Shown here: in pieces, positions 44,423 through 54,350 of the stretch
How the letters are laid out: every line of letters begins with the position of its first letter
Position numbering within the stretch: the first letter of the stretch is position 1
Assembly (NCBI GenBank): GCA_002167435.2
Contig: NHBR02000079.1
Span: 1-64,000 of the forward strand
DNA: 64,000 bases
Reading direction: 5' to 3'
DNA from: Allomuricauda sp. TMED12
GTDB taxonomy: Bacteria > Bacteroidota > Bacteroidia > Flavobacteriales > Flavobacteriaceae
Program-made: the position numbers and the translations under genes
Notes under the pieces: generated by a model
What the model was told of the DNA's origin: nothing
The model's input: only the letters and a program-made list of their open reading frames with translations
Database searches by the model: none

Positions 44423-44442
44423 ATTCCTGCGAATGCAGGAAT
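44423..44442. repeat. CCTGC-type palindrome upstream of a GIY-YIG gene
   Basis: ATTCCTGC (44423-44430), loop GAAT, GCAGGAAT (44435-44442): a perfect eight-pair hairpin directly after the dut stop codon, followed by CTTTTAGG. It could end dut transcription. It shares the CCTGC/GCAGG core and four-base loop with the palindrome at 44843 on the other side of the nuclease gene. Confidence 0.75.
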
Positions 44443-44481: not shown

Positions 44482-44793
44482 ATGAAGTTTTGGAATGTTT
44501 ATATAATGAGTAACAAACCAAAAGGTGTACTTTATATAGGAGTTACTGATAATCTTGATGAAAGAGTAAAAGAGCATAAATTAAAAGTTTATCCGCAATC
44601 TTTCACAGTTAGGTACAATTGTGACAAATTGGTCTATTTCGAGAAGTTTGAAAATGGGGAAGCGGCTGTAAAGCGAGAGAAACAAATGAAGAGATGGAAG
44701 AGAGACTGGAAAATCAGATTAATAGAAGGTTTTAACCCCGATTTGGTTGATATCAGTCTTAATTGGAAATTTAATTATAATAAATTAAGATAA
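44482..44793 (+). CDS. Small GIY-YIG nuclease domain protein
   Basis: A 103-residue stand-alone GIY-YIG domain of the UPF0213/UvrC-N class. The first motif reads VYIMSN...GVLYIGVTDNLDERVKEHK, supplying the two Tyr residues, the Arg and the His; the metal-binding Glu is likely in EAAVKREKQMKRWKR. No DNA-binding domain is attached. It separates dut from the nucleotidyltransferase and is flanked on both sides by CCTGC-type palindromes, which suggests a small inserted unit. Role unknown. Confidence 0.88.
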   Translation: MKFWNVYIMSNKPKGVLYIGVTDNLDERVKEHKLKVYPQSFTVRYNCDKLVYFEKFENGEAAVKREKQMKRWKRDWKIRLIEGFNPDLVDISLNWKFNYNKLR

Positions 44794-44842: not shown

Positions 44843-44862
44843 ACACCTGCCTACGCAGGTGT
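44843..44862. repeat. CCTGC-type palindrome downstream of a GIY-YIG gene
   Basis: ACACCTGC (44843-44850), loop CTAC, GCAGGTGT (44855-44862): a perfect eight-pair hairpin. It ends 7 bp before the ATG of the nucleotidyltransferase gene, so in the mRNA it would sit over the ribosome entry region. Same core and geometry as the palindrome at 44423. Confidence 0.75.
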
Positions 44863-51323: not shown

Positions 51324-52430
51324 ATGACTGAACCTGAAATTATTGCGGCTTTACGGCTGCAAAGTATTCCCAATATCGGGGATGTTACGGCAAAAAAATT
51401 AATTTCCCATTGCGGAAGCCCAACGGCTGTTTTTGAGGACAAACTACACCACCTCTTAAAAATAGACGGTATTGGGAAAATGACCTTAAAAGGTCTATAC
51501 GATGCTATCCATCTTGAAGAAGCCCAAAAAGAGTTCGAGTTTTTGTCCAAAGAAGACATAACCGTCTCTTATTTTATGGACGACGGGTATCCAACGCGTT
51601 TGAAGCATTGTGTAGATGGCCCTATCCTTCTATTTCAAAGGGGAAATATCAATTTACAGCACCAAAAGGTCATCAGTGTGGTCGGAACCAGGAACGTGAC
51701 CAACTATGGAACATCGTTTTGCAATCAATTTATTGAAGAGATTGCCCCATTAAACCCGATTATTGTGAGCGGATTGGCCTATGGAGTGGATATAGCCGTT
51801 CAAAAAGCGGCCATGGACCATGGATTACAGACTATTGCCTGTATGGCGCATGGACTTAATCAGATTTATCCCAAGGTCCATTCCAAATACAAATCCAAAA
51901 TTGAAGGGAATGGTGGTTTTATGACGGAATTTTGGAGCAGCAGCCAACCCAATCGAGAAAACTTTTTAAAACGTAACCGAATTATTGCTGGAATCAGTGA
52001 AGCTACCATAGTCATCGAGTCCGCAGAGAAAGGCGGCAGTTTGGTGACAGCGGATTTGGCCCACGGATACCACAGAGAGGTATTTGCCGTTCCTGGAAGG
52101 GCAACCGATAATTGGAGCAAAGGCTGCAATGACCTTATCAAATACCAAAAAGCGCATTTATTGACCTCCGCCGCAGAGTTAATTTATTTATTAGGGTGGG
52201 AAATTGAGGAGGAAAAGCAGGAAAAAGCGGTGCAAAAACAACTGTTCATCGAGTTGGACGAAACAGAACAGTCAATCTACTCTTACTTGCAGTTGAACGG
52301 CAAACAGTTGCTGGATACCGTGGCTTTGGAGTGTAATCTGCCCATTTTTAAGGTTTCGTCAACTTTGCTGAACATGGAAATGAAGGGCGTGATCCGACCA
52401 TTGCCCGGTAAAATGTTCGAGGCGGTCTAA
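51324..52430 (+). CDS. dprA: DNA-processing protein DprA
   Basis: Loads RecA on incoming single-stranded DNA during natural transformation. The 368-residue protein has an N-terminal helix-hairpin-helix region (about 1-65), the Rossmann-like core (GTRNVTNYG, VSGLAYGVDIAVQKAA, NRIIAGISEATIVIESAEKGG) and a C-terminal winged-helix (DprA_WH; about 305-368). It is divergent from the SPOR gene. A repeat cluster begins immediately after its stop codon. Confidence 0.95.
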   Translation: MTEPEIIAALRLQSIPNIGDVTAKKLISHCGSPTAVFEDKLHHLLKIDGIGKMTLKGLYDAIHLEEAQKEFEFLSKEDITVSYFMDDGYPTRLKHCVDGPILLFQRGNINLQHQKVISVVGTRNVTNYGTSFCNQFIEEIAPLNPIIVSGLAYGVDIAVQKAAMDHGLQTIACMAHGLNQIYPKVHSKYKSKIEGNGGFMTEFWSSSQPNRENFLKRNRIIAGISEATIVIESAEKGGSLVTADLAHGYHREVFAVPGRATDNWSKGCNDLIKYQKAHLLTSAAELIYLLGWEIEEEKQEKAVQKQLFIELDETEQSIYSYLQLNGKQLLDTVALECNLPIFKVSSTLLNMEMKGVIRPLPGKMFEAV

Positions 52431-52439
52431 TGGATGTTT

Positions 52440-52525
52440 TACTGAGCCCAGCGAAGTATCTCAATACTGTCAAAAATCGGCAAGCGATTCTTTAGCTCCA
52501 CTAAGTTTCGCTTCAGAATGACAAG
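52440..52525. repeat. REP-like palindromic unit 1
   Basis: Starts ACTGAGCCCAGCGAAGTATC and ends TTTCGCTTCAGAATGACAAG. The two ends are inverted relatives: the right end read backwards is CTTGTCATTCTGAAGCGAAA. The unit is about 86 bp and begins 10 bp after the dprA stop. The closest relatives are the units at 52541, 52891 and 53202. Confidence 0.7.
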
Positions 52526-52540
52526 CAGCCGGAAAATTTG

Positions 52541-52576
52541 TGTCATACTGAGCAAAGCGAAGTATCTCAAAAAACG
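52541..52576. repeat. REP-like half unit just before a GIY-YIG gene
   Basis: TGTCATACTGAGCAAAGCGA followed by AGTATCTC, a good match to the left arm of the unit at 53202, but without its right arm. It ends 2 to 5 bp before the two possible ATG codons of the nuclease gene, so the gene appears to start where the left arm stops. Confidence 0.75.
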
Positions 52577-52580
52577 AATG

Positions 52581-52883
52581 ATGAATAAACATTATGTCTA
52601 CATTTTAACCAACAAGAATAAAACTGTCTTGTACACTGGAGTTACCAACGATTTAACTCGTAGGTTAATTGAGCATATTGACAACATCGAACAAGGAAAG
52701 AAGACGTTTGCAGCAAAATATCGGTGCAAACATTTGCTTTATTATGAGCAATATGACTGGATTCAAGAGACAATTGCTCGTGAAAAGGAAATAAAAGGAT
52801 GGGTTAGGGCTAAAAAAGTAAACTTAATAAAGTCTATTAACCTTGACTTGGATTTTTTAGAAGAAGGATTTCTTTTTACATGA
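52581..52883 (+). CDS. Small GIY-YIG nuclease domain protein embedded in repeats
   Basis: A 100-residue single GIY-YIG domain: HYVYILTNKNKTVLYTGVTN with both motif Tyr residues, then DLTRRLIEHI (Arg, His) and the Glu of IAREKEIKGW. It is related to, but clearly diverged from, the copy at 44482. ATG 52581 (or 52578) is chosen; the frame also runs upstream through the repeat (to 52518), where it would merely translate repeat DNA. REP-like units lie directly on both sides. Function unknown. Confidence 0.88.
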   Translation: MNKHYVYILTNKNKTVLYTGVTNDLTRRLIEHIDNIEQGKKTFAAKYRCKHLLYYEQYDWIQETIAREKEIKGWVRAKKVNLIKSINLDLDFLEEGFLFT

Positions 52884-52890
52884 ATTTTCA

Positions 52891-52975
52891 TGTTGTACGA
52901 TGTGAAGTATCTCAACAATACCATTAATCTTTGTGATTCTTCATCCTCGTTTTACTCTGATTCAGAATGACAGGA
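52891..52975. repeat. REP-like palindromic unit 3 (diverged left arm)
   Basis: The left arm is eroded (ATGTTGTACGATGTGAAGTA, then TCTCAA) but the right arm GATTCTTCATCCTCGTTTTA, CTCTGATTCAGAATGACAGG is well kept and closely matches that of the unit at 53202. It begins 7 bp after the GIY-YIG stop codon. Confidence 0.7.
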
Positions 52976-53201
52976 TGCTACTTATCCCCTAAATTGTACA
53001 ACTAAACGAATTGGAATACCTGAAGACAACCGTTTATCGAACAAGGTCGCAACAGAACAGTCACCCTGTTTTTGCATGCAGTTTAACCGAAACTTGCCAC
53101 TACAAATCGGGATTTGAATGGCTTTTTGCGCAAAAACCTAGGTTTTCCACTCACTTTTCGAACCAAAGATAATGGCTTATCGAGCCTTATGTCCGATAAC
53201 A
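52976..53201. other. Spacer between two repeat units with a 53-codon open frame
   Basis: This part of the 414 bp gap before trpS carries no recognised gene. An open frame from TTG 53011 to TAA 53170-53172 would encode 53 residues containing RTRSQQNSHPVFACSLTETC and GFEWLFAQKPRF. I recognise no family; it may be a gene remnant or chance. Confidence 0.3.
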
Positions 53202-53288
53202 TGTCATGCTGAGCGTAGCTAAGTATCTAAAATTATGATTAGATCTGAGATTCATCATCCTCGTTCCACTCGGATTTGGAATAACAGG
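53202..53288. repeat. REP-like palindromic unit 4 (complete, about 87 bp)
   Basis: Left arm TGTCATGCTGAGCGTAGCTA, AGTATCT; right arm GATTCATCATCCTCGTTCCA, CTCGGATTTGGAATAACAGG. The ends TGTCAT and ATAACA are imperfect inverse copies. It carries no gene and lies 9 bp beyond the trpS stop codon, which faces it. It serves here as the reference form of the repeat. Confidence 0.75.
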
Positions 53289-53297
53289 AAGGACAAT

Positions 53298-54266
53298 TTA
53301 ATATCCTAACTTTTCACGAACTCGAGCCAAAACCTCATTGGCTACTTTTCGCGCTTTTTCTGCGCCAAAAGCTAGAGCTTGGTCGATTTCGTTTTTGTGG
53401 TTCATATAGTATTCGAACTTTTCCCGAGGTTCTTCAAATTTATCCAAAATAAGTTCGTACAATGCCTGTTTGGCATGTCCGTAACCGTAATTTCCTGCCA
53501 AGTAGTTGGCACTCATTTCCTCAATCTGTTCAGGAGAAGCCAAAAGTTTGTACAAGGCAAAAACATTGTCCTTGCTGGGGTCCTTGGGTTCTTCCATGGG
53601 AGTACTGTCCGTAACAATGCCCATAATCTGCTTGCGCAGTTTTTTGTCCGTTTGGAATAGATTGATGAGGTTGCCACGGCTTTTGCTCATTTTTTCACCA
53701 TCTGTTCCCGGTACGTACATGGTTTGCTCGTGTACCTTGGCTTCGGGCATAACAAAAGTTTCTCCCATTTGGTTGTGAAATCGGGATGCCACATCGCGTG
53801 TCATTTCCAAATGTTGTAGTTGGTCTTTTCCTACGGGAACAATGTCCGCATCGTACAATAAAATATCCGCGGCCATAAGCATGGGATAAGTAAACAGTCC
53901 GGCGTTTACATCTTCCAATCTGTCCGCCTTGTCCTTAAAGGAATGGGCCAAGGTTAATCTTTGATATGGAAAAAAGCAACTAAGGTACCAGGCCAATTCT
54001 GCGGTTTGAGGAATATCGCTCTGTCTGTAAAAAACGGTTTTTTCAATATCCAACCCAAACGCCAACCAAGCCGCCGCAATGGCATAGGTATTATTTCGCA
54101 ACAGTTCACCATCTTTAATCTGGGTCAGTGAGTGCATATCGGCAATAAAAAGAAAGGAATCGTTTTTGGGGTCTTCAGCCATTTCAATGGCAGGAGCAAT
54201 TGCACCCAATATATTCCCTAAGTGAGGTGTTCCTGTACTTTGTATTCCTGTCAGAATTCGGGCCAT
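53298..54266 (-). CDS. trpS: Tryptophanyl-tRNA synthetase
   Basis: Class I aminoacyl-tRNA synthetase of 322 residues. The HIGH-like motif is in QSTGTPHLGN near the N terminus (start MARILTGIQ), and the KMSKS motif is in DGEKMSKSRGN. The start ATG at 54266 is standard; upstream in-frame codons to 54302 are not conserved in the family as far as I know. Its 3' end abuts a REP-like unit. Confidence 0.97.
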   Translation of the reverse strand: MARILTGIQSTGTPHLGNILGAIAPAIEMAEDPKNDSFLFIADMHSLTQIKDGELLRNNTYAIAAAWLAFGLDIEKTVFYRQSDIPQTAELAWYLSCFFPYQRLTLAHSFKDKADRLEDVNAGLFTYPMLMAADILLYDADIVPVGKDQLQHLEMTRDVASRFHNQMGETFVMPEAKVHEQTMYVPGTDGEKMSKSRGNLINLFQTDKKLRKQIMGIVTDSTPMEEPKDPSKDNVFALYKLLASPEQIEEMSANYLAGNYGYGHAKQALYELILDKFEEPREKFEYYMNHKNEIDQALAFGAEKARKVANEVLARVREKLGY

Positions 54267-54350
54267 GCTTAATTTTTGCCCGTAAAAGTAAGCATCCCGC
54301 ACATATAAAAAAAGCGGTTATGAGCGCTAAAATGTTTTAGGGGCACTAAG

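Follow-up and report, generated by a model that had tools for sequence, protein, structure and literature searches.

Many small stand-alone GIY-YIG nuclease genes across bacterial phyla are accompanied by palindromic repeats, which match the protein clade within a genus

A family of stand-alone GIY-YIG nucleases forms a specific, old, and clade-matched partnership with palindromic repeats that are mostly headed by GTC(A), and this partnership is well supported by the genome comparisons described here. The family is represented twice in a stretch of 64,000 nucleotides from Allomuricauda sp. TMED12 (GenBank assembly GCA_002167435.2, contig NHBR02000079.1, positions 1 to 64,000), which we call the window. 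Since many relatives of the window gene lie among matching repeats of their own, the GIY-YIG family looks like a missing partner that maintains or spreads palindromic repeats in bacterial genomes.

The window gene lies in the spacer between dprA and a trpS-like gene, where the initial annotation had described a GIY-YIG gene nested among palindromic repeats. This arrangement is real: the protein matches PF01541, and the arm pattern of the repeats, at a tolerance of up to 3 mismatches, has 3 matches in the window, compared to no match in any of 100 dinucleotide-preserving shuffles. The features of the site are as follows.

51324 to 52430, forward strand: dprA, the upstream neighbor that marks the orthologous site (PF02481, E value 2.4e-70)
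52436 to 52523, forward strand: REPIN-like unit 1, complete, with the left arm at 52436-52463 and an inverted right arm at 52486-52523 (direct reading)
52542 to 52569, forward strand: lone left arm GTCATACTGAGCAAAGCGAAGTATCTCA, immediately upstream of the GIY-YIG gene, an exact match to the family D arm pattern
52581 to 52883, forward strand: stand-alone GIY-YIG nuclease gene of 100 amino acids, protein clade D (PF01541, E value 1.4e-15)
52887 to 52972, forward strand: unit 3, with a degraded left arm at 52887-52914 and a right arm at 52935-52972
53203 to 53286, forward strand: weak fourth unit close to trpS, with a left arm at 53203-53228 and a decayed right arm at 53247-53286
53298 to 54302, reverse strand: trpS-like gene, the downstream neighbor, encoding a class I W/Y tRNA synthetase (PF00579, E value 6.6e-56)

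The order at the site is thus a full unit, the lone left arm with the gene, and another full unit, all in one orientation, followed by the weak unit at 53203-53286. An alternative ATG for the clade D gene is located 3 bp upstream of 52581. The arms start with (T)GTCA or GTTTT and have stems of the ATACT..AGTAT type. The outer ends had been called inverse copies of each other at 10 of 11 positions, which direct reading confirms. The initial annotation is right in its description but missed one point: the downstream repeat does more than close the gene's own unit with a right arm (52935-52972), since a degraded left arm is also present and makes the unit whole. This unit 3 (52887 to 52972) aligns by eye with the sole REPIN of genome G018 at the same site. 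An Rfam search of 52300-53350 gave no match up to an E value of 1. The complete unit used as a DNA query against its own genome matched itself alone, and the arm pattern was required to find other copies. The trpS-like gene adjoins dprA in 27 of the 30 loci examined, counting the own genome. A conserved stretch resembling AACAGAACAGTCAC(C/T)CTGTTTTT is present at about 53050-53075 of the window and in L129, L130, L131, L132, L135, and L140; it is found in the dprA-trpS spacer of relatives with and without repeats and is perhaps a shared terminator.

PF01541 has eight matches in the genome of the window (G000), including four in short frames that stand alone. Each of these four genes is flanked by a different palindrome, namely, GTCATACTGAGC..GCGAAGTATCT, TTCCTGC..GCAGGAA, GTCAGGTCGAGCGCAGTCGAGACC, and GGTGGCTGAGCGGAGTCGAAGCCAC. 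The second of the stand-alone genes in the window belongs to the TTCCTGC..GCAGGAA family.

44424 to 44441, strand unassigned: clade B palindrome TTCCTGCGAATGCAGGAA, upstream of the second gene
44482 to 44793, forward strand: second stand-alone GIY-YIG gene, clade B
44845 to 44860, strand unassigned: palindrome ACCTGCCTACGCAGGT, downstream of the second gene, similar to family B and not labeled B by the pattern

Elsewhere in the same genome, positions 1501-1610 of L010 on contig C15 hold a D arm beside a GTCAT palindrome (ATTCCG..CGGAAT) and a clade A-type GCTGAAACAAGTTCAGCATGACG. This stretch is a mosaic of palindrome families on a contig with no GIY-YIG match.

A check for enrichment of GIY-YIG genes beside repeats in other genomes had been suggested from the window, and its outcome is positive. 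A GTDB genome scan with an alignment of the four G000 proteins and one peptide pattern yielded 517 confirmed stretches, the best 79 loci of which were used; 76 of these have usable flanks and form the cross-phylum set. Bracketing was scored as the best local alignment, in either orientation, between the 250 bp upstream and the 250 bp downstream, with a threshold of at least 20. Among these best loci, a shared repeat brackets 53 of 76 GIY-YIG genes versus 9 of 443 other open reading frames (ORFs) at the same loci, and control ORFs shorter than 150 amino acids are bracketed in 4 of 71 cases. The shared pieces are mostly palindromic, with (T)GTCAT..ATC frames. A further Bacteroidota-wide search, limited to the 29 best-scoring other loci and hence not a random sample, showed bracketing in 20 and a TGTC hairpin in 24 of the 29. 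The family is present in 108 of 198 Bacteroidota genomes and 64 of 103 genera, with up to 10 matches per genome; a search of a phage collection for it returned no match.

The repeats beside the genes have a recognizable head. Hairpins defined by TGTC followed by a 5-bp stem starting with A have a density of 3.7 per kb up to 300 bp from the gene versus 0.08 to 0.09 per kb at a distance of 3 to 6 kb, an enrichment of about 40-fold, and shuffled sequence contains 0.06 per kb. At least one such hairpin lies near 58 of 80 cross-phylum genes. Without any hairpin model, TGTCAT is the top enriched 6-mer beside the genes and is found in the flanks of 70 of them, and a scan for hairpins near the genes with no requirement for a head returned noise. 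The bracket is absent from 23 of the 76 cross-phylum genes and the TGTC hairpin from 22 of the 80. Where a cross-phylum gene has TGTC hairpins upstream as well as downstream, the closest arms are oriented +/- in 13 cases, +/+ in 9, -/+ in 6, and -/- in 4. The flanking arms are inverted for many clade F and G genes and direct at the window gene.

Within the genus, a match to the family is found in 54 of 60 genomes, and the genus set consists of 93 genes drawn from a larger number, matches at contig ends or with low rank being left out. Ninety of these genes have usable flanks, and 53 of the 90 are bracketed. One of seven palindrome families is found within 300 bp of 86 of the 93 genes, with the same label on both sides in 60 cases, while the seven patterns label none of 930 shuffled flanks. 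The patterns were written after the flanks had been viewed and are hence not blind; the informative part of the labeling is the near absence of cross-labels, which are limited to D beside two G genes. Mapped onto the protein tree, the palindrome labels require 6 changes, which is the minimum for seven labels, compared to 50 to 62 changes in 200 label shuffles.

Every one of the 10 clade D genes lies at dprA, and clade G has 14 of its 15 genes at one site, so that for these two clades the pairing could be inherited along with the site. The palindrome stays with its clade at 2, 3, 3, 4, and 3 sites for clades A, B, C, E, and F, respectively; over all clades, there are 18 clade-site combinations. 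One site is swapped: G027 and G032 have a clade A gene with A repeats there, and G057, the only B genome at the site, has a clade B gene with B repeats (G036 and G056 have theirs at another site). Both neighboring genes are shared at this site, with about 90% identity over 372 amino acids and 76 to 80% over 230 amino acids. The multisite clades and the swapped site argue against site inheritance as the full explanation. Within a clade, the genes are mostly found at orthologous sites, which suggests that the gene itself rarely moves.

A comparison of the repeats at orthologous sites had also been proposed, and the dprA-trpS site does show gene, repeat-only, and empty states among relatives. The site could be read in 30 of the 60 genomes, with the gene in 8 (that of G044 containing stops), a remnant in 1, REPINs only in 4, and none of these in 17. 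Neighbors on the dprA tree can differ: G047 has the gene and an array in a 985-bp spacer versus a 2-bp spacer in G037, G010 has one REPIN (108 bp) versus a 2-bp spacer in G046, and G015 and G000 have the gene versus REPINs only in their near neighbors G036 and G018. No clear target site duplication was seen by eye at this site, and the differences may reflect gain or loss alike. Decayed copies of the GIY-YIG gene are found in G039, G044, and G057.

Copied blocks are found in three genomes. G133 has two copies (659 and 722 bp, 88% identical) that lie 6.4 kb apart, and the edges of the block are exactly TGTCATTCCC on the left and ATGACAGA on the right, both being the outer ends of arms. G151 has a tandem copy with 96% identity, and G125 has an inverted copy about 9 kb off, with 89% identity over 347 bp. 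Plain homologous recombination between repeats could also change the arrays, including the making of tandem copies.

The repeat families differ in their dispersal. For family F, a hand count over the 60 genomes gives 28 exact copies, 23 of which are no more than 150 bp from a GIY-YIG gene. Copies of families D and G are in addition scattered elsewhere in the genomes, with 0 to 55 D arms per genome and none of the reversed D pattern in all 60 genomes. Copy number is associated with finding the cognate gene (raw P values of 6e-4, 2e-4, and 7e-9 for D, G, and F, respectively, with kinship ignored), and a modest excess is left after removal of the copies assumed to be local (P values of 0.04, 0.0025, and 0.03, with kinship again ignored); in these tests, genomes whose genes were unfetched are scored as lacking the gene. 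Five genomes without a found D gene have 17 to 27 D arms. G016 has a cluster of twelve copies of GTCGCTGAGCGNAGTCGAAGCGAC, which is a family F palindrome with compensatory changes, within 14 kb (C1:3971938-3985760); among the GIY-YIG matches listed, the nearest is about 55 kb off.

The symmetry of the palindromes is kept. A set of 69 distinct D-type arms was drawn from 33 loci. At the variable stem position, 65 of these arms have a Watson-Crick pair, with all four pair types represented, and 2 have a G-T pair; at the inner R/Y stem position, 67 have a Watson-Crick pair and 2 have a G-T pair. Many two-mismatch variants of families F and G are, by eye, compensatory pairs. Single D and G arms show no gain in folding stability over shuffles when DNA energies are used, and family F shows a weak signal (z score of -1.9), so that the hairpin claim rests on covariation. 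The covariation could equally come from recognition of the palindrome by a dimer.

Relatives beyond the Bacteroidota show a similar arrangement. Among 15 plasmid-collection loci picked from the matches listed, 11 are bracketed (5 of 6 and 6 of 9 in two sets); the negative loci are L217 (score of 17), L224, L228, and L229, whose scoring overran the gene end and is therefore not a fair one. A chromosome of Aeromonas caviae filed among the plasmids has 3 copies of CGTCATTCCCGCNNNNGCGGGAATC in 4.94 Mb, allowing up to 2 mismatches, and all 3 are located at the GIY-YIG gene. In Azospirillum lipoferum, the gene (L221:2992-3285) is positioned amid CGTCATCCCCGCGAAGGCGGGGATCCAG units between sufB and sufC of an iron-sulfur gene cluster. 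The stems are CGTCATCCCAGGG in Rhizobium sp. CIAT894, CGTCATCCTCGGG in Shinella and Neorhizobium, CGTCACCCCGGG in Sphingobium, and CGTCGCCCCGTG in Novosphingobium. The S. meliloti unit is CTCATCCCTGTG, in which the head is without its G; we take this palindrome to be RIME. On a Planktothrix plasmid (L216:3001-3285), a GIY-YIG gene with TGTCATTCTGAG repeats lies between the gene of an MmeI-like enzyme and drmA of a DISARM locus.

A Neisseria gonorrhoeae record includes a GIY-YIG relative inside an array of CGTCATTCCCGCGCAGGCGGGAATC, which matches the dRS3 motif ATTCCC(N8)GGGAAT. This adjacency is weak on its own because the record contains 237 matching copies, and it gains weight from the family-wide pattern.

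The window gene belongs to a widespread, UPF0213-like family of stand-alone GIY-YIG proteins, each about 100 amino acids long, with predicted nuclease activity. The residues Y7, Y18, G20, R28, H32, E68, and K79 are present in 98 to 100% of 171 aligned rows, and they include the conserved Y, Y, G, R, and E of the GIY-YIG superfamily, all of which are found (Y7, Y18, G20, R28, and E68). The AlphaFold2 model of the window protein has a mean pLDDT of 95, and its only PDB fold match at an E value below 1e-3 is the UPF0213 protein 1ZG2. PF01541 is the only Pfam domain found in the protein, and neither Pfam nor the fold match to UPF0213 indicates the catalytic domain of an HUH (Y1) transposase. The group I intron endonuclease model TIGR01453 matches in part, under its cutoff.

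The likeliest explanation, because of the analogy to RAYTs and the copied blocks, is a RAYT-like partnership built on a GIY-YIG nuclease, in which the enzyme cuts and spreads its cognate repeats. We regard it as somewhat probable and infer binding, cutting, and the route of copying from these comparisons. Each clade would be dedicated to one short palindromic repeat as its partner, which would typically have a GTC(A) head, a short covarying stem, and often an inverted second arm that makes it a REPIN-like unit. The enzyme may recognize its cognate arm by dimerizing on the palindrome or by binding an extruded hairpin and cut there, and the cut would be repaired from, or joined to, another copy, yielding new copies of the unit, occasionally with the gene inside or beside it. 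GIY-YIG enzymes hydrolyze DNA without a covalent intermediate, and the spreading would thus use break repair or gene conversion, unlike the transesterification of the RAYT type. A wider reading, on which we are nearly evenly divided, is that this would be a second and independent REP-nuclease partnership. One ancient GIY-YIG family would then be the dedicated partner, in Bacteroidota, Proteobacteria, Cyanobacteria, Chloroflexota, and beyond, of a palindrome superfamily whose head is mostly GTC(A) and to which the Neisseria dRS3/NIME and the rhizobial palindromes would belong, and spread would take place by cutting and repair and not by transposase chemistry.

Some free-standing GIY-YIG genes are homing enzymes, and the gene might likewise be a selfish element that lands in the repeat arms by cutting them and having itself copied in during repair, with the repeats made in some other way. 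The partial match to TIGR01453, below its cutoff, and the relative inside an operon between sufB and sufC are consistent with homing. The repeats of family F (23 of 28) and of Aeromonas (3 of 3) lie at the gene, however, and are therefore hardly an independent target there; furthermore, the repeat sequence shifts with the protein clade, the genes are mostly fixed at one site, and the window protein has no second Pfam domain. Homing is thus a possibility that we consider unlikely. A domesticated host enzyme, which would trim or resolve palindromes during replication or regulate itself through the flanking palindromes while any repeat spread proceeds independently, seems quite unlikely as well. 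Although the sites are mostly fixed within clades and the catalytic residues are intact over great distances, as would suit such an enzyme, each clade was found in less than half of the genomes of the genus (10, 18, and 15 of 60 for D, F, and G, counting fetched genes only), several clades occur in one genome, G039, G044, and G057 have decayed copies, and the arms are dispersed away from the gene.

The inverted ends around many clade F and G genes might suggest an ordinary insertion sequence or MITE, in which the repeats would be the termini of an element with an overlooked transposase and the GIY-YIG gene would be cargo. In the arrays read at the dprA site, however, the GIY-YIG gene is the only gene between the arms, and an IS4 transposase is found beside one relative (L220) but not beside the other annotated relatives, making this origin very improbable. 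We give the least credence to a safe-harbor coincidence, in which the arrays mark tolerant intergenic DNA that collects small ORFs with no functional tie between gene and repeat. The 237 copies in the gonococcal record do make adjacency there little proof, but other ORFs are bracketed in only 9 of 443 cases (4 of 71 for those under 150 amino acids) versus 53 of 76 GIY-YIG genes, the clades match their repeats, and all 3 Aeromonas copies are at the gene.

The repeats concerned (dRS3, rhizobial mosaic elements, and Bacteroidota TGTCAT repeats) are abundant in many genomes and, to our knowledge, the enzyme that makes them is an open question outside the RAYT-linked REPs. The repeat families described here come with a candidate enzyme of about 100 amino acids that can be expressed and tested in vitro. 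If a RAYT-like partnership with a GIY-YIG nuclease is true, partnerships of palindromes and nucleases would have two or more origins, in unrelated folds, and a mobile repeat could be sustained by a nuclease that acts through hydrolysis. The cognate pairs, seven of them in one genus, would then offer ready material for studying how such a small nuclease recognizes a palindrome.

Among the open-license PMC articles listed in a literature search, covered mostly by title and the opening of the abstract and without preprints, none joins a GIY-YIG protein to REP, REPIN, dRS3, or the repeats described here. A term search of the GIY-YIG phylogenomics paper (PMC1564403) finds no occurrence of "palindrom", "UPF0213", or "COG2827" in the part of the text covered. 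The UPF0213 proteins 1ZG2 and 1YWL are of the same size and domain as the window protein and are deposited as hypothetical proteins. The homing endonucleases of the I-TevI type share the catalytic core and possibly a selfish nature. They differ from the window protein, which has 100 amino acids and one Pfam domain with no extra recognition domain such as NUMOD; no host intron or intein is seen here, and the partner is a palindromic repeat family.

Passages of PMC3898611 give dRS3 as ATTCCC(N8)GGGAAT, with almost 700 copies in the meningococcus, and name the Nf1 phage integrase as the enzyme linked to it; the term GIY-YIG is absent from the main text of that paper. The GTCAT-stem-ATC frame is common to dRS3 and the D repeats of the window, but the window repeats have another stem and do not contain the ATTCCC(N8)GGGAAT motif.

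The closest comparison is to REP sequences and their RAYTs, a resemblance pointed out in the initial annotation that is strongly supported by the bracketing (53 of 76 versus 9 of 443) and by the repeat family tracking the protein clade. Passages of PMC2817692 describe RAYTs as flanked by inverted REPs, as coevolving with them, and as correlating with REP number. As far as such passages describe REP/RAYT systems, REPINs, and BIMEs, the shared features are a short gene between imperfect palindromes, a fixed head before the stem, and tandem arrays of units. Coevolution of the gene and its flanking palindrome, as in these partial descriptions, is seen here in the 6 label changes versus 50 to 62, obtained with non-blind patterns, and the greater number of repeats with a cognate gene may have a counterpart here in the modest excess that is left once local copies are removed, with kinship ignored. 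The differences are the enzyme, which is GIY-YIG here and HUH/Y1 in RAYTs; the head, which is mostly (T)GTC(A) here and GT(A/G)G in REPs; the arms around the gene, which here are often direct and not inverted; and the copy number, with 0 to 55 D arms per genome here compared to usually over 100 REPs in the descriptions available. Since the HUH fold and the GT(A/G)G head are absent, this is not a RAYT system, although it is RAYT-like in plan.
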